From the NCBI RefSeq assembly GCF_014692675.1, contig NZ_JABFCZ010000003.1, positions 124,001-188,000 on the forward strand: DNA of 64,000 nt. Direction: 5' to 3'. The notes under the pieces are model-generated. The model saw only the letters and a list, made by a program, of their open reading frames with translations. It was not told the DNA's origin and did no database searches. This DNA is from Roseibium aggregatum. Lineage in GTDB: Bacteria; Pseudomonadota; Alphaproteobacteria; Rhizobiales; Stappiaceae. Shown here piece by piece: positions 19,923 through 52,953 of the stretch. Made by a program: the position numbers and the translations under genes. Numbering within the stretch: position 1 is the first letter of the stretch; each line of letters starts with the position of its first letter.

Positions 19923-21374
19923 ATGACGCTTTGGATCCTAATCGCCGTGATGACGGCTGTCGCCGCTTTGTCCATCCTCGTGCCGATGTCGAGGAAACGG
20001 CCGCCGGAGGACGAGACTGTCGGGCAGACGGCCGATGAAGCCGTTTACCGCCAGCAACTTGACGAGGTCGAAAAAGACCTGGAACGCGGCCTGATCGATG
20101 ACGAGGCCGCGAATGCCGCGCGGACTGAAATTGCCCGCCGGTTGCTGGCTGCGCACGAGCGCGCGGAAAAGGCAGACGCCGCTCCGAAGGCCTCCTGGCC
20201 GCTGCGCTTCGGGCAGATCGTGGCCATTGCGGGTCTGCCGCTCGTCGCGCTCGGCGTTTATCTGTTCATCGGCTCGCCGGATCTTCCGGACCAGCCGCTT
20301 GCCGCCCGCATGTCAGCGCCGCCGCAGGACCAGTCGGTCGAAATGCTGGTGGCCCGTGTTGAAAAACACCTGGCTGAAAACCCCCAGGACGGCCAGGGCT
20401 GGGATGTGCTGGCGCCGGTCTACATGCGGCTCAACAAGCCCAGGGAAGCCGCGGGCGCCTATCAGCATGCCATCCGGCTGCTCGGCCCGAGCGTCCGGCG
20501 CATGACCGATTTGGGCGAAGCCCTGACCGTGGCCAATGACGGTATCGTTAGCGCCGATGCCCGAGGTGCGTTCGAGCAGGCCATAAAATTGGACAAAACC
20601 GCTGTTAAGCCGCGTTTCTTCATTGCTCTGGCGCTCGGCCAGGAAGGCAAGAAGGACGAAGCGATCGCCGCCTGGCAGGACCTGCTGAAGGATGCCGATC
20701 CGCGTGCGGCCTGGGTTCCGGTCGCACGGCAGAACCTGGCGGCTCTCGACGGCACGGTGCCGCCGATGGCCGAAAACCTGCCGGGCCCGAACCATGAGCA
20801 GATGGCCGCGGCCGCCGACATGAGCGCGGCGGACCGCAACCAGATGGTCGCCGGCATGGTGGGCCGGCTTGCCGAACGTCTCAATTCGCAAGGCGGCACA
20901 CCTGCGGAATGGGCTCGGCTGATACGGGCCTATACGGTGCTGGGCAAGAAGGACGAGGCGCAGGCTGCCTTGCAGAAGGCGTCGGCCGCATATGCCGGTG
21001 ATCCGGCCGCCATGGGGCAGATCGCGCAAATCGCGGGGCAGCTCGGCCTTGCAGCGCCTGAAGGCATGGCGCCGCCGATGGCTGAAAATCTGCCCGGGCC
21101 GAACCGCGAACAGATGGCCGCGGCCGCCGACATGAACGCGGCAGACCGCAACCAGATGATCGCGGGCATGGTGGGCAAGCTTGCCGATCGGCTCAATTCG
21201 GAGGGCGGCAGCCCTGCGGAATGGAGCCGGCTGATCCGGGCCTACACGGTGCTGGGCAAGAAGGATGAGGCACAGGCTGCCTTCAAACAGGCGTCGGCCG
21301 CATATGCCGATGATCCGGCTGCCCTCGGGCAGATCAAGGAAACTGCGGGGCAACTGGGGCTGAAAACGGAATAG
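19923..21374 (+). CDS. ccmI: Cytochrome c biogenesis protein CcmI (CycH)
   Basis: The 483-residue protein starts with a membrane helix (MTLWILIAVMTAVAALSILV), a cytoplasmic loop with the YRQQLDEVEKDLERGLID zipper typical of CcmI, and a second helix near residue 105. The rest is a periplasmic TPR region that holds apocytochrome c for haem ligation. It opens the ccmIEFH operon. The periplasmic part ends in two tandem copies of a roughly 104-residue unit (PPMAENLPGP... at 280 and 384), which makes the protein longer than many relatives. The ATG at 19923 fits the family start; an upstream ATG at 19905 is possible. Confidence 0.93.
   Translation: MTLWILIAVMTAVAALSILVPMSRKRPPEDETVGQTADEAVYRQQLDEVEKDLERGLIDDEAANAARTEIARRLLAAHERAEKADAAPKASWPLRFGQIVAIAGLPLVALGVYLFIGSPDLPDQPLAARMSAPPQDQSVEMLVARVEKHLAENPQDGQGWDVLAPVYMRLNKPREAAGAYQHAIRLLGPSVRRMTDLGEALTVANDGIVSADARGAFEQAIKLDKTAVKPRFFIALALGQEGKKDEAIAAWQDLLKDADPRAAWVPVARQNLAALDGTVPPMAENLPGPNHEQMAAAADMSAADRNQMVAGMVGRLAERLNSQGGTPAEWARLIRAYTVLGKKDEAQAALQKASAAYAGDPAAMGQIAQIAGQLGLAAPEGMAPPMAENLPGPNREQMAAAADMNAADRNQMIAGMVGKLADRLNSEGGSPAEWSRLIRAYTVLGKKDEAQAAFKQASAAYADDPAALGQIKETAGQLGLKTE
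20760..21371 (+). repeat. Tandem 312-bp duplication inside ccmI
   Basis: Two in-frame units of 312 bases each, starting at about 20760 and 21072, encode near-identical segments beginning PPMAENLPGPN and ending AGQLGL. By eye about four fifths of residues match, and the changes are scattered. The spacing was read from the two matching ATG codons at 20766 and 21078. Confidence 0.85.
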
Positions 21375-29230: not shown

Positions 29231-29411
29231 AACGGCGCGCCGGAGCGGTTCCGATTGCATCGTCCACCGCTCGGCCAACCTTACGAAGGTTTAATCTTCC
29301 CGACAGACGCCTGTAAGGCAGGCATCCCTATCTTCAATCGTGACACGGCAGGGAGTTCCCCCGCGTACCTGCCGGCAATCTGATCCGTCAGTCACGAGAG
29401 GAAGAAGTAAG

Positions 29412-30962
29412 ATGCAAAAACAGTCCCCCGAAACCGGCAAGGTTATTTCCTGGCGTGCGCGCCGTGCCGGCCTGCTGGCAGGCGCCATGGCGCTCGGCGT
29501 TGCCGGCGTGCTCACCGCCCAGACCGCCATTCCGAACCAGGCAGCACTGGCCGATCCGGTCAAGGTCGAAAGCGCCGGTCCGGTCGACTTCACCAACGTC
29601 GTCAAGGCCGTTCAGCCTGCGGTTGTCAGCGTCCGCGTCAAGGAGGAAATCCAGCCGCAGATGATGGGCTTCAACGGTAACGGCAACAGCGGCAACTTCG
29701 ATGACTTCTTCAACAGCCTGCCGAAGGATTCGCCGCTGCGTCGTTTCTTCAAGGATTTCGGCGGCCAGGGACAGAGCGAAGGCAAAACGCCGCCGCGCAG
29801 GCATCAGTACGGTATGGCCCAGGGCTCCGGCTTCTTCATCACCGAAGACGGTTATCTGGTGACCAACCACCATGTGATCGACAATGGTACCGAATTCACG
29901 GTCATCGACAATGACGGCAAGGAATACAGCGCCAAGCTGGTCGGCGCCGACAAGCGCACCGACCTGGCGCTCCTGAAGGTCGATTCGGACCACAAGTTCA
30001 CCTATGTGAAGTTCGCCGACGACGCGCCGCAGGTGGGTGAGTGGGTCGTTGCCATCGGCAACCCGTTCGGCCTCGGCGGCAGTGTCACCGCAGGGATCGT
30101 CTCCGCCCGCGGCCGTGATATCGGCGCAGGCCCCTACGACGATTTCATCCAGATCGACGCGCCCGTGAACCGCGGCAACTCCGGCGGTCCGGCCTTCAAC
30201 ATGAAGGGTGAGGTGATCGGTGTGAACGCCGCCATCTTCTCGCCGTCGGGCGGCAACGTCGGGATCGCCTTCGCTATCCCTGCCTCCACGGCAAGCGGCG
30301 TCATCGCGGATCTTGAGCACGGCGGCAAGGTTGTCCGCGGCTGGCTCGGCGTACAGATCCAGCCGGTGACCGACGATATCGCCGAAAGCCTCGACCTGAA
30401 GGATACCCACGGTGCCCTGGTCGCCCAGGTTCAGGACGACAGCCCGGCGAAAGCGGCTGGCCTTCAGACCGGCGATACCATCCTGTCCGTTGACGGCAAG
30501 AGCATCAAGGATCCGCGCGAACTGTCCCGCGTGATCGCGGCCTACGATCCGGATACGGAAGTGAAGGTATCCCTGTGGCGTGACGGTCAGCAAAAGGATG
30601 TCGAGGTCAAGCTCGGCCGTCTGAGCGATACCGCCAGCGCCGACACCCCGGCGAGCCAGGTCGAGCCGTCCAAGGCGACCCTCGATGATCTGGGCCTTGC
30701 CCTGACGACCGCCAAGGAAGCCGGTATGGACGGTGACGGCGTGGTCATCGCCGACGTCAACCCGGACGGTCCGGCCGCCGACAAGCAGCTCAATCAGGGC
30801 GACCGGATCCTGGAAGTGGCGGGCCAGAAGGTCTCCACGCCTGAGGATGTGGTCGCGGCGATCGACGCAGCGAAGAAGGACGGCCGCAAGGCGGTTCTGT
30901 TCCGGGTGGAACGTGGCGACAACTCCCGCTTCGTGGCCCTGCCGATGAAGAAGGTCGGCTAA
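29412..30962 (+). CDS. degP: Periplasmic serine protease DegP/HtrA family
   Basis: The 516-residue protein has an export signal (to about residue 47), then a chymotrypsin-like domain with catalytic His154 (TNHHVID), Asp184 (RTDLALL) and Ser257 (RGNSGGP). Two PDZ domains follow (about 310-400 and 425-510). It degrades or refolds damaged envelope proteins. A purine-rich site (GAGGAAGAAG) precedes the ATG. In rhizobia the degP1 gene sits between the cytochrome maturation genes and a two-component pair as here, though here a block of five or six genes intervenes. Confidence 0.95.
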   Translation: MQKQSPETGKVISWRARRAGLLAGAMALGVAGVLTAQTAIPNQAALADPVKVESAGPVDFTNVVKAVQPAVVSVRVKEEIQPQMMGFNGNGNSGNFDDFFNSLPKDSPLRRFFKDFGGQGQSEGKTPPRRHQYGMAQGSGFFITEDGYLVTNHHVIDNGTEFTVIDNDGKEYSAKLVGADKRTDLALLKVDSDHKFTYVKFADDAPQVGEWVVAIGNPFGLGGSVTAGIVSARGRDIGAGPYDDFIQIDAPVNRGNSGGPAFNMKGEVIGVNAAIFSPSGGNVGIAFAIPASTASGVIADLEHGGKVVRGWLGVQIQPVTDDIAESLDLKDTHGALVAQVQDDSPAKAAGLQTGDTILSVDGKSIKDPRELSRVIAAYDPDTEVKVSLWRDGQQKDVEVKLGRLSDTASADTPASQVEPSKATLDDLGLALTTAKEAGMDGDGVVIADVNPDGPAADKQLNQGDRILEVAGQKVSTPEDVVAAIDAAKKDGRKAVLFRVERGDNSRFVALPMKKVG

Positions 30963-31034
30963 GCGAAGCAAGTACCCCGTTAGACACGGCCGGCTGATCC
31001 CCCTCTGCCCCCCGCAATCGGCCGTGTCGCACCA

Positions 31035-31072
31035 GCTGGCGGCAGCCCGGACCTTCCGGACTTGCCGCCAGC
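31035..31072 (+). terminator. Hairpin after degP, possible attenuator or weak terminator
   Basis: GCTGGCGGCA and TGCCGCCAGC pair perfectly, with a further CCGG/CCGG inside, 72 bases after the degP stop. The downstream bases (CGCGTCTTT) contain only a short T-run, so termination would be partial. Confidence 0.4.
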
Positions 31073-31100
31073 CGCGTCTTTGGCATTTGCCACTACTGCC

Positions 31101-31263
31101 TAGTCACCCGAATCTGAAGTTCGTCTCAATTCTCGGAATACTCTGAACGAACTTTAGATTCAAAAGGGTGACTAGCAAGCATATGTTTCTATTGTGGTTT
31201 TCTAATTTGAAATACGCTCTGACGGTTGTTGCTGAAATGAGGCGTATTTCAAATTAACCACAC
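31101..31263. repeat. 163-bp two-hairpin repeat element, copy 1
   Basis: This segment folds as two successive long hairpins. The first pairs TAGTCACCC with GGGTGACTA and continues GAATCTGAAGTTCGT with ACGAACTTTAGATTC. The second pairs TGTGGTT and AATTTGAAATACGC with GCGTATTTCAAATT and AACCACA around a TTCT bulge. A second copy of equal length lies at 39061-39223 in the same orientation, about 83 percent identical by my column count, with most differences in the loops. Copy 1 ends 28 bases before the start of the response regulator gene, so it lies in its leader if the promoter is further upstream. It encodes nothing. Confidence 0.88.
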
Positions 31264-31291
31264 TAGCGCCATTCTTCTGTAAAAGGAGGTC

Positions 31292-31978
31292 ATGTTGCGG
31301 ATTCTCATCATTGAAGACGATGCCGAGGCCTCGGCCTATCTGGCCAAGGGTCTGAAAGAGCTGGGTCACCTGGCGGATCAGGCCGCCGACGGCGAAGCCG
31401 GTCTCGAACTTGCCATGTCGAGCACCTACGACGTTCTGATCGTCGACCGGATGTTGCCCAAGCGCGACGGGCTGTCGGTGATCGAGACACTGCGCAAGGC
31501 CGGAAACCACACGCCGGTGCTGATCCTGTCGGCCCTTGGACAGGTCGACGACCGGGTCAAGGGGCTGAAAGCCGGCGGCGATGACTATCTGCCCAAGCCC
31601 TATGCCTTTACCGAGCTGCTGGCGCGCATCGAGGCCCTGTCCCGGCGCCCGAAGGCGGGTGCGGAAGTGGAGACGACCTATCAGGTGGGAGACCTCGTCC
31701 TCGACCGCCTGTCCCATACCTGCAGGCGCGGTGAAGAGGATATCCCGCTGCAGCCGCGGGAATTCCGCCTGCTGGAATATCTCATGCAGCATGCCGGCCA
31801 GGTGGTGACCCGCACCATGCTTTTGGAAAACGTCTGGGAATATCATTTCGATCCCCAGACCAACGTCATCGACGTGCACATCTCGCGGCTGAGAGGCAAG
31901 ATCGACAAGGGCTTCGACGTGCCGCTGCTGCATACCATCCGCGGTGCCGGGTACACGATCCGTGACGCGTCTAGCTAG
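31292..31978 (+). CDS. OmpR-type response regulator (ActJ-like by position)
   Basis: The 228-residue regulator has the acidic pocket EDD at residues 8-10, phosphoacceptor Asp52 (LIVDRMLP), the conserved Lys in LPKPYA and a winged-helix output domain (LQPREFRLLEYLMQHAGQVVTRTMLLENVW). AAAAGGAGGTC directly before the ATG is a near-perfect ribosome binding site. Between degP and glnE, with a kinase overlapping its end, it matches the ActJ position in Sinorhizobium, linked there to acid stress and degP control. The 163-bp repeat lies in its leader. Confidence 0.88.
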   Translation: MLRILIIEDDAEASAYLAKGLKELGHLADQAADGEAGLELAMSSTYDVLIVDRMLPKRDGLSVIETLRKAGNHTPVLILSALGQVDDRVKGLKAGGDDYLPKPYAFTELLARIEALSRRPKAGAEVETTYQVGDLVLDRLSHTCRRGEEDIPLQPREFRLLEYLMQHAGQVVTRTMLLENVWEYHFDPQTNVIDVHISRLRGKIDKGFDVPLLHTIRGAGYTIRDASS

Positions 31979-39055: not shown

Positions 39056-39060
39056 TTTTC

Positions 39061-39223
39061 CAGTCACCCGGATCTGAAGTTCGTCTTACTTCTCAGTTAG
39101 CTCAGAACGAACTTCAGATTCAAAGGTGTGACTGGCAAGTATATGCTTCTGGTGTGGTTTTCGAATTTGAAATACGCGCAGGCGGTTGCTGCAGAAACAA
39201 GGCGTATTTCAAATTCACCACAC
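39061..39223. repeat. 163-bp two-hairpin repeat element, copy 2
   Basis: This copy aligns without gaps to 31101-31263. Hairpin 1 pairs CAGTCACCC with GTGTGACTG and GGATCTGAAGTTCGT with ACGAACTTCAGATTC. Hairpin 2 pairs GGTGTGGT and GAATTTGAAATACGC with GCGTATTTCAAATTC and ACCACACC around a TTTC bulge. Compared with copy 1, at least two pairs changed on both sides (T-A to C-G at the base of hairpin 1, T-A to G-C in hairpin 2), and a G-T wobble became G-C. It lies 12 bases beyond the pepN stop and upstream of pleC. Confidence 0.88.
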
Positions 39224-39235
39224 CCGTATAGCCAA

Positions 39236-41881
39236 CTATTGCAGGCATCTGTCGGCGATATCCTGGCTGTCGCGGGACAGATTATCGGCCTCCGAGATGC
39301 GCAAAAGCGCCGCTTCCGCAAGGGCCGCACGTGCCGGTTCATAGGCGCGCCAGGAGCGGAAGCACGTCAAAAGCCGGGACGCCACCTGCGGATTGCGCGC
39401 GTCGAGCGTCAGCACATTGTCGGCGACGAAATCGAAGCCCTTGCCGTCGCTCCGGCCGAACTGGGTAGGGTTGCCCGTGGCAAAGGCGTGAATGAGGGAC
39501 CGGGCCCGGTTGGGGTTGGAAATGTCGTAAAGCGGGTCGGCGGTCAGCGCCTTGACCTTCTCCAGCCCGTCGGGGAGAGGGGCGGTGGCCTGAACCATGA
39601 ACCATTTGTCCATGGCAAGCGACATTTTCTCGTAGCGCTTGCGATAATCGCGCAGCGCCTCTTCCGCCCCGGCGAGCCCCTGATGGACCAGCACGGTCAG
39701 CGCCGCCAGCAGGTCCGTCATGTTGGTCGCGTCATGATAGCGCCGTTCGATGAGCGCTTCCGCCGTATCGGCTCCGCTCAGCGCATAATAGGACAGTGCC
39801 CGGTTGGCGAGAGCCCGCCGGCCCGCAGAGGCGGCATCCGGCGAAAACGCCGTTTCCCCTTCCGTTTCTTCTGCGAGCGTCAGGAACGTATCGGCATGGG
39901 CTCTGGCCACGGCTTCGCGCAGGGCGTTGCGGGCGCCGTGGATCGCGTCCGGATCCACGTCGCGGCCGATATCGCGGGCAATGTCGGCTTCGCCCGGAAG
40001 ATCGAGCACCTGCGCCTTGAAGGCAGGATCCAGTTCGCGGTCGGCGAGAATAGCGCCGAAAGCGGTCACCAGCGCCCCGTCCGCTTCCGGCTTGCGGCCG
40101 GCACGGATATCGGATGTCAGCTGGATCAGGTCGCGGCTGGCGAGCGACTGGACCGCCTGCCAGCGGTTGAACGGATCGCTGTCGTGGCTCGCCTGGAACA
40201 GGAGGTCGTCGGTGGTCTGGTGGAACTCGAGGCGAACCGGTGCGGAAAACCCGCGCAGCAGGGAGACCACCGGCCGGTTCGGGACGTCCGAGAAGGTCAC
40301 CTTCTGGGTTCCCTCTTCGAGCACCAGAACGTCGTCCTGCACCTTCGCGCCGGTGACCCGGCCAAGGGGCATGTCGGAGCCGTTCGGGCCGATCAGGCCG
40401 AAGCGGATCGGAATGACCGACGGATCGGCCTTGTCCTGGCCCGGCAGCGGCGGGATCGCCTGGGAGAGTTCGAGCGTCAGCTCGCGCGCCGTCTTGTCGT
40501 AATGGCTCTTGACCTCGACATGCGGCGTGCCCGCCTGGTCGTACCAGCGGGCGAACTGGCCGAGATCCGTCGCCGTTGCTTCCGAAAAGCAGGTCAGGAA
40601 GGCCTCGATGGTGGTCGCCTCGCCGTCGTGACGCTGGAAATAGAGATCGATGCCGGCGCGAAAGCCGTCGTCACCGAGCAGCGTTTTCAGCATGCGCACG
40701 ACTTCCGCGCCCTTTTCGTAGACGGTCGCCGTGTAGAAGTTGTTGATCTCCCGGTAGCTCTGCGGGCGGACCGGGTGGGCGAGCGGTCCGGCGTCCTCGG
40801 GGAACTGATGGGATTTCAGGAGCCTGATGTCGCCAATGCGCTTCACCGGCCGGGAGCGCTGGTCGGAGGAGAATTCCTGGTCGCGGAAGACGGTCAGGCC
40901 TTCCTTCAGGCACAACTGGAACCAGTCGCGGCAGGTGATGCGGTTGCCGGTCCAGTTGTGGAAGTATTCGTGGGCGATCACGGCCTCGATATTGGCGTAG
41001 TCCTGATCGGTCGCGGTCTGCGGATCGGCCAGCACGTACTTGTCGTTGAAGACATTGAGGCCCTTGTTCTCCATCGCGCCCATGTTGAAGTCGGAGACGG
41101 CGACGATGTTGAACACGTCGAGATCGTATTCGCAGCCGAACACCTCCTCGTCCCATTTCATGGAGCGCTTGAGGGAATCCATCGCCCAACCGCACCACGG
41201 CTCGCGACCGTGTTCGACATAGATCTTCAGGTCGACCTTCCGGCCCGAGCACGTGGTGAACGTGTCGGCCACATGGCCGAGATCGCCGGCGACCAGCGCA
41301 AACAGATAGGAGGGCTTGGGGAACGGGTCGTGCCAGACCGCAAAATGCCGGTCGGTGCCTTCGATGTCGCCGGCCGCCACCGGGTTGCCGTTGCCGAGCA
41401 GGACCGGGGCTTCCGACTTCCGCGCCTCGATCCGGGTGGTATAGACGGCAAGCACGTCCGGGCGGTCGAGGAAATAGGTGATCCGGCGGAAGCCTTCCGC
41501 CTCGCACTGGGTGCAATAGGTGCCGGACGAGCGGTAAAGCCCCATCAGCTCGGTATTGGCATCCGGATCGATGGTGGTGCGGATTTCCAGTTCGAACGGG
41601 TTTTCCGGCGGTTTTCTGATTTCCAGCCGGTCCGGCGTCGCCGTATAGGCGTCGTCGCTTAAGGGGAAGCCGTCAAGCGCCAGGCCTGCAAGCGCCAGCC
41701 CGTCACCGTCCAGCACCAGCGGGGTGCCGGGGGTTGTGCCTTCCTGGCGGCGTACGGACAGCCGGGCCGTGACCGTCGTTGCCTTGGGGGCAAGGCGGAA
41801 GTTGAGGTCGACCTTGTCGATCAGGTAGGGCGCGGGTGTGTAGTCGTCCAGGCGAATGACTGGGGCCGCTTCCGGGCGCAT
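39236..41881 (-). CDS. pepN: Aminopeptidase N
   Basis: The 881-residue M1 zinc metallopeptidase removes N-terminal residues from peptides in the cytoplasm. It has the substrate-recognition motif GAMENKGLNVFND (about residue 265) and the zinc site HEYFH at His304-His308, with the third ligand Glu about 18 residues later (KEGLTVFRDQEF). C-terminal alpha and beta domains complete the normal E. coli PepN length. CAGGAG lies seven bases before the ATG at 41881. The upstream open frame is a shadow. It is co-directional with the alpha/beta hydrolase gene. Confidence 0.95.
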   Translation of the reverse strand: MRPEAAPVIRLDDYTPAPYLIDKVDLNFRLAPKATTVTARLSVRRQEGTTPGTPLVLDGDGLALAGLALDGFPLSDDAYTATPDRLEIRKPPENPFELEIRTTIDPDANTELMGLYRSSGTYCTQCEAEGFRRITYFLDRPDVLAVYTTRIEARKSEAPVLLGNGNPVAAGDIEGTDRHFAVWHDPFPKPSYLFALVAGDLGHVADTFTTCSGRKVDLKIYVEHGREPWCGWAMDSLKRSMKWDEEVFGCEYDLDVFNIVAVSDFNMGAMENKGLNVFNDKYVLADPQTATDQDYANIEAVIAHEYFHNWTGNRITCRDWFQLCLKEGLTVFRDQEFSSDQRSRPVKRIGDIRLLKSHQFPEDAGPLAHPVRPQSYREINNFYTATVYEKGAEVVRMLKTLLGDDGFRAGIDLYFQRHDGEATTIEAFLTCFSEATATDLGQFARWYDQAGTPHVEVKSHYDKTARELTLELSQAIPPLPGQDKADPSVIPIRFGLIGPNGSDMPLGRVTGAKVQDDVLVLEEGTQKVTFSDVPNRPVVSLLRGFSAPVRLEFHQTTDDLLFQASHDSDPFNRWQAVQSLASRDLIQLTSDIRAGRKPEADGALVTAFGAILADRELDPAFKAQVLDLPGEADIARDIGRDVDPDAIHGARNALREAVARAHADTFLTLAEETEGETAFSPDAASAGRRALANRALSYYALSGADTAEALIERRYHDATNMTDLLAALTVLVHQGLAGAEEALRDYRKRYEKMSLAMDKWFMVQATAPLPDGLEKVKALTADPLYDISNPNRARSLIHAFATGNPTQFGRSDGKGFDFVADNVLTLDARNPQVASRLLTCFRSWRAYEPARAALAEAALLRISEADNLSRDSQDIADRCLQ

Positions 41882-41931
41882 GGGAATCTCCTGATCGGAT
41901 GAGGACAACAGAAACTGGGATACGGAGGGAC

Positions 41932-42777
41932 TTAGGCGACGCCCGGCGATGCGGCAAGGGCAAGAGCGCATAATACGGTCACCAATTCGCTTTGCGGATC
42001 GGCGAGCGGGTTGAGCACCGTGAAGTGGTCGGCGCCTTCCTGGATGTTCAAAGTGCCTGCAAGATCCGGTCCGGTCCAGGTGTCGACCAGCATCCGGCTC
42101 TGGCGCAGGAACTCGCCCGATTCGCTGCCGCCGACAACGGCGCAGAAGTGCCCGCTTTTCGGCTGCGGCCACAGGATCGGCGAGGCGTCCCGGGCCGTCT
42201 CCGCCGTCATTCCGATCGCCTTGTTGATGCTCGTTTCCACGAGCGGCTCCAGTTCGAACACGCCGGAAATGGGCATGGCGGCGGCAACGAGATCTGCGGG
42301 CAGACCGCGTTCGGTCCAGTCCGTTGCCATCAGGGCCGCCGTCAGGTGACCGCCGGCGGAGTGGCCGTAGACGAGAAGCGGCTTGCCGAAGGTATTGTAA
42401 AGATGGTCCGCAAGGTCCTGCATTTCCGCGATGATGTCGGTGACGGCGACCGCCGGACACAGGCTGTAATTGGCGGCGGCAACGTCGAACCCGTGGGCAT
42501 TCAGGCCCCGGGCCATATGGGAGAACGCGCTCTTGTCGAGAGATTGCCAGTAGCCGCCGTGGATAAACAGGGCAAGCAGGGGCTGCCTGGGTTCTGAGGA
42601 CGCGGGAAAAAGATCGTAGGTGTTGCGCGGCGCCGGCCCGTAGGGCTGGTCGAAAACAGCGTTTTCCTGTCCTTCCCGATAGGTCTCGGCGTCTTCCTGC
42701 CAGGCTTCGAAGATGGCCGGATGTTCGGGAACCCGCGCCCTGTTGTTATATTCCACTTCCATGTCGATCGTGGTCAT
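41932..42777 (-). CDS. Alpha/beta hydrolase (kynurenine formamidase/esterase-like)
   Basis: The 281-residue protein contains FIHGGYWQSLDKSAFSHMA, the oxyanion motif HGGYW seen in kynurenine formamidase-like and related esterases. The nucleophile is in VYGHSAGGHLTAAL and the late histidine in EGADHFTVLNPLAD. The reaction is probably hydrolysis of an ester or amide of a small metabolite; no kynurenine pathway gene is nearby to specify it. GGGGAGG precedes the ATG at 42777. A longer frame exists without a better site. It lies 50 bases upstream of pepN. Confidence 0.85.
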   Translation of the reverse strand: MTTIDMEVEYNNRARVPEHPAIFEAWQEDAETYREGQENAVFDQPYGPAPRNTYDLFPASSEPRQPLLALFIHGGYWQSLDKSAFSHMARGLNAHGFDVAAANYSLCPAVAVTDIIAEMQDLADHLYNTFGKPLLVYGHSAGGHLTAALMATDWTERGLPADLVAAAMPISGVFELEPLVETSINKAIGMTAETARDASPILWPQPKSGHFCAVVGGSESGEFLRQSRMLVDTWTGPDLAGTLNIQEGADHFTVLNPLADPQSELVTVLCALALAASPGVA

Positions 42778-43015: not shown

Positions 43016-43318
43016 ATGGTTTCCTTCAATCGTATTGTTCTGACCGCTGGTTCGGTCCTGATGCTGGGCAGTGTCGCTGCCGAAGCCCGTCCCAGTCTCT
43101 ACACCATGTCCTGTGCCCAGGCGCAGGCATTTGTCCAGAGGCAGGGCAGTGTGGTCGCCAACACCGGTCCCATGACCTATGAGAAGTTCGTTTCAAACGG
43201 AAAATACTGCGACCGGACCCAGAGAGCCGTTTCGGCGCATATCCAGACCCGCGACAATGCGCAGTGCCGGATCGATTACAAATGCGCAGGTCTGCCGCGG
43301 GACACGAGAGGACGTTAA
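43016..43318 (+). CDS. Small secreted four-cysteine protein, paralogue 1 of 4
   Basis: The 100-residue product has a signal peptide ending VAAEARPS and a mature domain RPSLYTMSCAQAQAFVQRQG, VVANTGPMTYEKFV, YCDRTQ and a C-terminal CRIDYKC. Four cysteines (in MSC, YCD, QC and KC) are shared by all four tandem paralogues, so two disulfides in the periplasm or outside are likely. I know no named family. The ATG follows a purine-rich GGGGGATTTAAAGC. The mature start, SLYTM.C.QA, is the family hallmark. Confidence 0.8.
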   Translation: MVSFNRIVLTAGSVLMLGSVAAEARPSLYTMSCAQAQAFVQRQGSVVANTGPMTYEKFVSNGKYCDRTQRAVSAHIQTRDNAQCRIDYKCAGLPRDTRGR

Positions 43319-43350
43319 GGCCACGAAAAGGCACATGGAAGAAGAAACCC

Positions 43351-43653
43351 ATGCAATCGGCGACCACAACCGTGACCGTTGCGGTGCTGGCGATGCTGGC
43401 GGCGTCTCCGGCCAGCGCCCGTCCAAGCGTCTATACGATGACCTGCGCCCAGGCGCAGGCCTTCGTCAAGCAGCGCGCCGCGGTCGTGGCCAACACCGGC
43501 CCGCAGACGTTTCAGCGGTTCGTTACCGATCAGCGCGGCTGCGACCGGCAGCAGGTGGCGTGGCCGGCCTACGACAGAACCCGTGACAATCCGCAATGCC
43601 TGATCGGAATGAAATGCATCGACGCGCCAGAGGCCATCGGTGATCCGCGCTAG
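43351..43653 (+). CDS. Small secreted four-cysteine protein, paralogue 2 of 4
   Basis: The 100-residue product has a signal peptide (MQSATTTVTVAVLAMLAASPASA) and mature domain RPSVYTMTCAQAQAFVKQRA, VVANTGPQTFQRFV, GCDRQQ, PQCLIGMKC. It has the same four cysteine positions and spacing as its neighbours, but a YCDR to GCDR change. The start at 43351 has GAAGAAG upstream; the frame is open further but without an export signal. It follows paralogue 1 by 32 bases. Confidence 0.8.
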   Translation: MQSATTTVTVAVLAMLAASPASARPSVYTMTCAQAQAFVKQRAAVVANTGPQTFQRFVTDQRGCDRQQVAWPAYDRTRDNPQCLIGMKCIDAPEAIGDPR

Positions 43654-43720
43654 GATTTTTTGTAAGATAACGACGCTGCCGTCGCATCCGGCGGCAAGCG
43701 TATCGAAAGGGAGAGTGTTC

Positions 43721-44014
43721 ATGCGATCGATAGCCGGCACCGTGATCATCGCGGGCCTGACCGTTCTGGGTGCGAGCGCCGCGCAGGCCCGTCCGAGCCT
43801 CTACACCATGACCTGTTCCGAGGCCAAGGCCTTCATCAAGAGCAAGGGAGCGGTCGTCGCCAACACGGGGCCGCAGACCTCCGCCCGGATCGTGGCGAAC
43901 GCCAGTTATTGCGACCGCATGCAGATCATAAAGGCCTTCGTCGGCAAAACCACGGACAATCCGCAGTGCCAGATCGGCTTCCGCTGTGCAAACGATCAGA
44001 TGAGTGTGGAATGA
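43721..44014 (+). CDS. Small secreted four-cysteine protein, paralogue 3 of 4
   Basis: The 97-residue product has a signal peptide MRSIAGTVIIAGLTVLGASA and mature domain RPSLYTMTCSEAKAFIKSKG, VVANTGPQTSARIV, YCDRMQ, TTDNPQCQIGFRC. GAAAGGGAGAG precedes the ATG. Its leader and first 20 mature residues are nearly identical to those of paralogue 4, so these two are the most recent duplication in the array. Confidence 0.8.
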   Translation: MRSIAGTVIIAGLTVLGASAAQARPSLYTMTCSEAKAFIKSKGAVVANTGPQTSARIVANASYCDRMQIIKAFVGKTTDNPQCQIGFRCANDQMSVE

Positions 44015-44072
44015 CGTCTGTTCAGGCCTTTTTCCGATGAATGGACGATCGGGAACGAAAGGGAGGCCGTCC

Positions 44073-44366
44073 GTGCAAACGACAGTTGCATCGGTGATCG
44101 TCGCGGGCCTGACCGTTTTGGGCGCGAGCGCCGCCCAGGCCCGTCCGGGGCTCTACGCCATGACCTGCTCCCAGGCCCAGGCCTTCGTCAAGAGCAAAGG
44201 CACGGTCGTCGTCGACACCGCTCCGAATGTCACTGTGCGGGCCGTTGCCAATGCAGGCTATTGCGACCGATTGCAGAAGACGAAACCGCTCTTCGGCAAA
44301 ACCACCGACAATCCGCAATGCCGGATCGGCCTCCGCTGCGCCACGGAAACGATGAGTGCGGAATGA
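44073..44366 (+). CDS. Small secreted four-cysteine protein, paralogue 4 of 4
   Basis: The 97-residue product starts at a GTG with GGGAGG seven bases upstream and reads (M)QTTVASVIVAGLTVLGASA, then RPGLYAMTCSQAQAFVKSKG, VVDTAPNVTVRAV, YCDRLQ, TTDNPQCRIGLRC. The four cysteines are kept, but the VANTGP core has become VDTAP, the most divergent of the set there. It ends the array; a methyltransferase gene starts about 110 bases later. Confidence 0.78.
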   Translation: MQTTVASVIVAGLTVLGASAAQARPGLYAMTCSQAQAFVKSKGTVVVDTAPNVTVRAVANAGYCDRLQKTKPLFGKTTDNPQCRIGLRCATETMSAE

Positions 44367-48052: not shown

Positions 48053-48141
48053 GGCTCGACCATGGCATCCATGCCGCTTCCTCGCCATATCCTGAGGCTT
48101 TCTTTCTGGCACTGTCACGGCATGGATTACCCGGTCAAACC

Positions 48142-48420
48142 CACTGCTGTCCGGCTTAATGTTGGACTTCTCATATATCTCATTTGAAAGATTGGGGAAT
48201 TTCAGATCATTCCGCTTAGAGACACGCGATGGACGTCCCGCTTGTCATTCCGGTTTGACGCGGCAGCGGCAAGACCGGGATCCAGTACTCCGTGTGGCCT
48301 GCGAGTGGAAAAGATAGCAAATTCAATAGATTAATGGATCCCTGTCTGCGCAGGGATGACAACAAACTCTCCGATTAGGCGGATCGCCCTATTCGGGCAA
48401 ATTTAAACCGGACAGCAGTG
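48142..48420. mobile_element. Non-coding MITE-like element B inserted in a second REP hairpin
   Basis: The 279-bp element begins CACTGCTGTCCGGCTTA and ends TAAACCGGACAGCAGTG (16 of 17 match as inverted ends). Flanking repeats are GGTCAAACC (48133-48141) and GGTCAAGCC (48421-48429), one mismatch. Joining the flanks restores ATTACC-loop-GGTAAT, a REP hairpin whose loop is the duplicated site. Its ends are the same type as element A, only 90 bases away. Internal REP-like arms are at 48241-48288 and 48333-48363, in the opposite order (long arm first) from element A. It is non-coding. Confidence 0.8.
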
Positions 48421-48515
48421 GGTCAAGCCCGGTAATGACGGAGGTGGAGGAAGAGCGTTGCTTTGCATTGTGCGCTCCCGCCCTTGGCAAACGATGTCTA
48501 TCCCGAAACGAAATC

Positions 48516-52841: not shown

Positions 52842-52953
52842 GCGAGTGGATTGCCCGGACTTCGCCGTGCAATGACACGGGGGAAGTGGCAAGGCTCGCC
52901 CACACACACTGCGTCATCACGCGGCGAAGTCCGGGTGATCCAATCCACCTCGC
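52842..52953. repeat. REP pair (inverted, BIME-like)
   Basis: Two long arms, GTGGATTGCCCGGACTTCGC (from 52845) and the inverted GCGAAGTCCGGG...ATCCAATCCAC (52924-52949), flank a 37-base centre between the tag and YciI genes. The unit resembles the REP family GTCATTGCCxGGCTTGACC of alphaproteobacteria. It is non-coding and probably marks the end of both transcripts. Confidence 0.65.

Follow-up and report, generated by a model that had tools for sequence, protein, structure and literature searches.

A double-hairpin repeat in Roseibium aggregatum as a probable IS630-family MITE, with paired stem changes that point to hairpin mutation in DNA

A 163-bp double-hairpin sequence occurs twice in the 64,000-nucleotide stretch of Roseibium aggregatum DNA analysed here (the window), and is very probably (about 0.88) an IS630-family (Tc1/mariner) MITE whose layout resembles that of the CcrM-associated intergenic repeats (CIR; Chen & Shapiro 2003, as reviewed in PMC2229807) and in which the paired stem changes derive largely from templating of one arm by the other. 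The first-pass annotation had reported two gap-free 163-bp copies with two hairpins each, and had proposed either an RNA control element selected for its fold or, alternatively, a mobile repeat family. The coordinates, alignment and folds were confirmed, with 27 differences between 31101-31263 and 39061-39223, or 29 over 167 columns when the CTAG on both sides is included. The source genome holds only these two copies, both of which lie in the window. The features, with the neighbouring genes for orientation, are as follows.

31101..31102, no strand: left target-site duplication TA (of C-TA-G) of copy 1, from the empty site in the congener G018 and flank counts
31103..31263, + strand: copy 1 of the probable MITE, 161-bp element body; 163 bp (161 + 2) missing in G018; dispersed family
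31100..31175, + strand: hairpin 1 of copy 1, outer stem of 10 bp including CTA, inner stem of ~15 bp
31176..31188, + strand: 13-nt linker CAAGCATATGTTT of copy 1, between two internal CTAG/CTAT sites
31189..31266, + strand: hairpin 2 of copy 1, mirror layout, 4-nt bulge TTTC on the 5' arm
31264..31265, no strand: right target-site duplication TA of copy 1, from flank counts and the G018 empty site
39063..39223, + strand: copy 2 of the probable MITE, 161-bp body, 84% identity with copy 1; exact empty site in G018
39060..39135, 39136..39148 and 39149..39226, + strand: hairpin 1, linker and hairpin 2 of copy 2
39061..39062, no strand: left target duplication of copy 2, CA; same CA in the G018 empty site
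39224..39225, no strand: right target duplication of copy 2, now CC, from the G018 comparison
29340..30962, + strand: Do-family serine endopeptidase (DegP-like) upstream of copy 1, neighbour only (TIGR02037, 459.6 bits)
31292..31978, + strand: response regulator, neighbour only (PF00072 and PF00486)
39236..42460, - strand: pepN ORF, neighbour only (TIGR02414, 1204.7 bits), its 3' end ~10 bp past copy 2

In copy 1 the left terminal inverted repeat (TIR) is the 5' arm of hairpin 1, the first 21 bases of which are the IS630 terminus, and the right TIR is the 3' arm of hairpin 2; hairpin 1 carries a 4-nt bulge (AAAA) on its 3' arm. Each hairpin of both copies is bounded by CTAG or a near variant. 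The two copies have fold energies of -72.8 and -74.9 kcal/mol (z -10.3 and -9.8), and 0/200 shuffles folded as well.

Empty sites, IS630 termini and dispersal

Insertion is recorded most directly in G018, in which flanks ~85-92% identical to those of the source genome enclose two empty sites, with exactly 163 bp missing at each. The empty site of copy 1 reads ACTACTGCC-TG-TTGCAATTC, a single target copy that has mutated to TG; the few bases just to the right of copy 1 differ from G018, but the lengths match exactly. The empty site of copy 2 reads CTTTTC-CA-GTAAAGCC. The genes beside the insertion sites are intact in G018, where the sequence upstream of the response regulator is conserved without the element, and in other congeners matches at this locus begin only after the element. 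Across the family, TA is found on both sides of 54/91 full-length copies, usually within CTAG, and CTAG on both sides of 39/84 aligned copies. Because the outer bases are unequal in some copies (TTAG...CTAG, CTAG...CTAT), the duplicated part is TA alone. ISY100, an IS630-family element, inserts at TA and duplicates it in vitro (PMC2170065), and the same paper cites published work in which IS630 prefers TA within CTAG. The present element shares the TA duplication, the terminal repeats and the CTAG target preference (of IS630) with these elements; it differs from them in that they are autonomous and their ends are not embedded in such hairpins.

The first 21 bp of the element, with the end motif GTCACCYGAATCTGAAGTTCG, are identical to the termini of 1.15-kb IS630 elements of Rhizobium, Mesorhizobium, Novosphingobium, Sphingorhabdus and others, which have their termini inside CTAG and encode an IS630-family transposase (NF033545, 284 bits; PF13358). 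An entire element of this kind is present in one Roseibium genome (G030), with a transposase 85% identical and CTA|GTCACC at both ends. The right terminus (GTGTGG...) was found on no autonomous element, the right end being only loosely matched. Neither the source genome nor G065, which has the most copies, contains an IS630 transposase close to the family, and a search for the cognate enzyme in the copy-rich G065 and G068 gave only weak IS630-like matches under the cut-off. Mobilisation in trans is thus inferred, with the enzyme taken from other genomes. The 161-bp body is too short to encode a transposase and the copies are dispersed, which places the element among MITEs; a literature search for an IS630 MITE in Stappiaceae gave no match.

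On these grounds, an IS630-type transposase supplied in trans would recognise the outer terminal repeats, GTCACCYGAATCTGAAGTTCG and GTGTGGTGAATTTGAAATWCG, and would insert the unit into the TA of CTAG with duplication of the TA. Each inner hairpin arm repeats the same terminus in inverted orientation, with 3-4 additional bases 7 bp from the end; these probably prevent cleavage at the inner CTAG ends, and the pair would therefore move as a unit. On this reading the window copies are old one-off insertions in a genome that has no matching transposase.

The mirror orientation of the hairpins and the CTAG at both ends, which looks like a 4-bp YTAG duplication, could also be read as those of a REP/BIME-type repeat that depends on a RAYT (Y1) transposase, or of an IS701-type element duplicating YTAG. 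This is exceedingly improbable, as the net insertion and the termini fit 161 + 2. Both candidates were rejected, RAYT/REP because the termini belong to IS630 elements, and the IS701-type duplication for the same reason and because the outer C/G is not duplicated (TTAG...CTAG).

A mobile repeat family, the alternative offered by the first-pass annotation, is thus borne out by the empty G018 sites and by copies dispersed well beyond the window. Among 61 related genomes searched, 33 gave matches at E<=1; dozens of matches had E<1e-10 and many copies were full length. The 21-bp end motif was found in 17/45 congeners (37 sites in G065, 26 in G068), and copies are present also in Stappia, Hongsoonwoonella and Martelella. 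Copies, including copy 2, sit in unrelated contexts and avoid ORFs, with 26/72 insertion points inside a dominant ORF compared with 81% of random points. Derivatives of ~70 bp with a single hairpin, in which the left arm is joined to the right arm, are also dispersed. The outer TIRs are better conserved (entropy 0.28 and 0.36 bits) than the inner arms (0.44 and 0.40) and the loops (1.00 and 1.14). GANTC, the CcrM site, occupies stem positions 11-15 of the left arm in 67/84 copies and positions 58-62, in the right arm, in 62/84, and occurs in few places elsewhere. In R. sediminicola (L234 in G065) head-to-tail tandem copies have one CTAG in common, an arrangement that reads as insertion into the CTAG ending an older copy.

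Other repeats were also seen in the window. The stretch at 48126-48436 belongs to a second repeat family of ~311 bp with 39-bp inverted ends, which gave 15 matches in the source genome and as many as 43 in one congener; an internal stretch of ~120 bp occurs alone too, and the whole is probably another MITE family. At 43085-44355 a 108-nt unit occurs four times as spaced direct copies that are 70-73% alike, two of them in 300-nt repeats, with a spacing of 332-370 bp and overlying ORFs that gave no Pfam match. At 52844-52945, arms of 46 nt around a 10-nt loop form an inverted repeat, again under an ORF with no Pfam match, and two 300-nt direct repeats, 84% alike, lie within a TPR-protein gene at 20735-21346.

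Paired stem changes and their origin

Eight stem pairs differ between the window copies, three of them by Watson-Crick double changes (pairs 2-75 TA/CG, 92-165 AT/GC and 104-157 TA/GC) and one by a change from GT to GC. The TA/CG, TA/GC and GT-to-GC changes described in the first-pass annotation are therefore present, but the one that deviates from the family consensus, both in pair 104-157 and in the GT pair, is copy 1 rather than copy 2. In pairs 2-75 and 92-165 one partner lies within the duplicated target site, i.e. outside the transposable element. In the family at large (84 copies), 94.1% of cells are paired and 132 are double-change cells, compared with 32.5 in shuffles. In 42 sister pairs, 40 compensated changes were counted where ~11 were expected, alongside 250 one-sided changes; as one-sided stem changes outnumber compensated ones by about 6:1 in sister copies, correction is occasional. 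When copies on R. aggregatum and Labrenzia plasmids were compared within species, only single-site differences and no compensated pair were found.

The earlier reading of paired change as the mark of a selected fold stands only in part: the covariation is real, whereas some of it lies in host target DNA and the arms are rewritten by mutation. The very stable fold, the strong covariation and the position of copy 1, which ends 28 bp before the start of the response regulator, would all suit an RNA, either a 5' leader or a small RNA, whose structure is under selection and which happens also to be repeated. This is nevertheless very improbable. The site is empty in the nearest relative, G018, with the gene and its ribosome-binding site otherwise the same; the copies elsewhere share no context; and co-change extends to target DNA outside the element. 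Mismatches in 56 representatives comprise 91 G·T and 88 A·C, and with the two so nearly equal the tolerance of G-U that a selected RNA should display is seen on neither strand. An Rfam search of the region returned no family over threshold, with only a chance mir-4637 match below it, and a scan of 30940-31300 found no promoter-like or terminator-like site. The proposal of a selected 5' leader control element is accordingly not supported. The position of copy 1 upstream of the response regulator is an insertion accident: the ribosome-binding site AAAGGAGG is intact just upstream of the gene, and nothing found suggests a dedicated control role for either window copy. The insertion adds 163 bp to the 5' region of the gene, and any effect on expression would probably be incidental.

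The matching stem changes are better explained by mutation of a DNA hairpin than by selected RNA structure. When a DNA hairpin is replicated or repaired, one of its arms can serve as the template for the other (template switching), which could account for most of the paired changes. Template switching between inverted repeats is stated to leave homogenised arms and an inverted spacer as its footprints (PMC8604942; PMC8794818). In the outer three pairs of hairpin 1, which include target-site bases outside the element, there are 17 compensated cells compared with 5.1 in shuffles. At one orthologous site, CTAG/CTAG and TTGG/CCAA occur as alternative paired states, flank and arm having changed together (L049 compared with L046 and L051). 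Among the 84 copies, the only indels of at least 3 nt are exact removals of a bulge (L039, L154, L160, L164 and L135) or its fill-in with the exact complement (L049), and in the bulge-less L160 the hairpin-2 loop is inverted (0.96 in inverted orientation compared with 0.62 in direct). Hairpin-templated correction, which is not proven, is supported by the host-flank co-change, the exact loss and fill-in of bulges and the loop inversion. Separately, the hairpin-1 loop appears inverted between two copies of another genome (L307 and L316 in G428), the second such loop inversion mediated by a hairpin.

Ordinary compensatory selection after insertion, with no templated correction, would also produce the excess of compensated double changes found in the sister pairs. 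It remains a contender but a rather doubtful one, since wobble intermediates are not preferred, and the bulge events, the inverted loop and the joint change of flank and arm fit templating better. The transition/transversion spectrum did not separate one-event from two-event compensation (p 0.11). Templating and selection may operate side by side, with selection for arm pairing in mobile lineages. Pure homogenisation would erase the bulges, which persist in all types, so some selection on the layout is likely.

A recurrent architecture and its known relatives

The same architecture recurs, with different stem sequences, in at least six alphaproteobacterial families. Two hairpins, each with a bulge of 3-4 nt in its inner arm, are separated by a 13-nt linker that lies between CTAGs, and the whole spans ~167 bp (mostly 165-171); total length, hairpin sizes, the side and position of the bulges and linker length are kept across types, whereas the stems differ greatly. 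Searching with the linker pattern turned up elements in further families of the order and in two alphaproteobacterial families outside it; among 12 named genomes the pattern was found only in Brucella cytisi (G434), which has ~10 double-hairpin copies. The Brucella cytisi genome also gave 33 IS630-family transposase matches, several of them split across two frames. In G428, a terminus near that of the genome's own elements (GTGTTCCGTCGCAAACATTTGA compared with GTGTTCCGGCGCTGACATTTGA) adjoins an IS630-type N-terminal ORF, and this terminus suggests that each element type may follow its own IS630 transposon. A type-D double-hairpin element is present alongside type A in Roseibium (L086, 2900-3300, in G018), so that two types occur in one genome.

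This constancy of length, bulge position and linker between CTAGs in spite of little stem similarity, together with the GANTC sites in both arms, could mean that the folded DNA itself (two bulged cruciforms and a linker) is both selected and recognised, with the transposase or a host protein (for example CcrM or IHF) binding it during transposition. Such a role is unlikely: related IS630 elements move without hairpins of this kind, the ISY100 transposase alone is sufficient in vitro (PMC2170065), GANTC, which type B elements lack, belongs to the IS630 terminus, and the single-hairpin derivatives have dispersed too. More tentatively, and somewhat against the odds as we judge them, all types could form one ancient double-hairpin superfamily (possibly including CIR), in which a functional folded layout is kept as a chassis while the stems are rewritten for changing IS630 transposases and template switching maintains their pairing.

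The first-pass annotation knew of no described family with a double-hairpin layout, but CIR, known from Caulobacter and Brucella, is one. Like the present element, CIR are alphaproteobacterial and intergenic, with two independent long hairpin arms and a linker, TA termini and a conserved GANTC, as far as PMC2229807 describes them. They differ in length (~110 bp compared with 161 bp here, by published description only) and in the place of GANTC, which is at the terminal loop in CIR and in the stem here. Given these two differences, and a comparison made by description, the present element is not filed as CIR. The mechanism of CIR mobility is reported there as unknown, whereas the present element is tied to IS630; this link of a CIR-like layout to IS630 is the new part. 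RUP of Streptococcus pneumoniae, a MITE of IS630-Spn1, resembles it in being non-autonomous, in its IS630-matching terminal repeats and TA target and in its similar size class (107 bp), but belongs to the repeats in which the two ends pair into a stem-loop, without a linker or double hairpin (PMC2229807). In mechanism, the present element would work like RUP. The Bru-RS1 and Bru-RS2 repeats of Brucella are likewise palindromic and intergenic, and reportedly form a hot spot for IS711 (target YTAR), the present elements being rich in CTAG; Bru-RS are reported as shorter, at 103-105 bp, in a comparison made by description.

For RNA discovery these elements carry a caution, in that covariation far above that of shuffles arose in mobile DNA hairpins partly by mutation, even linking host flank to element. 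RNA selection can be separated from hairpin mutation in a simple way, by the balance between G·T and A·C together with bulge events and inverted loops. For the alphaproteobacteria themselves, the association with IS630 offers a testable answer to how CIR-like double-hairpin repeats move, a question that a review (PMC2229807) listed as unresolved.
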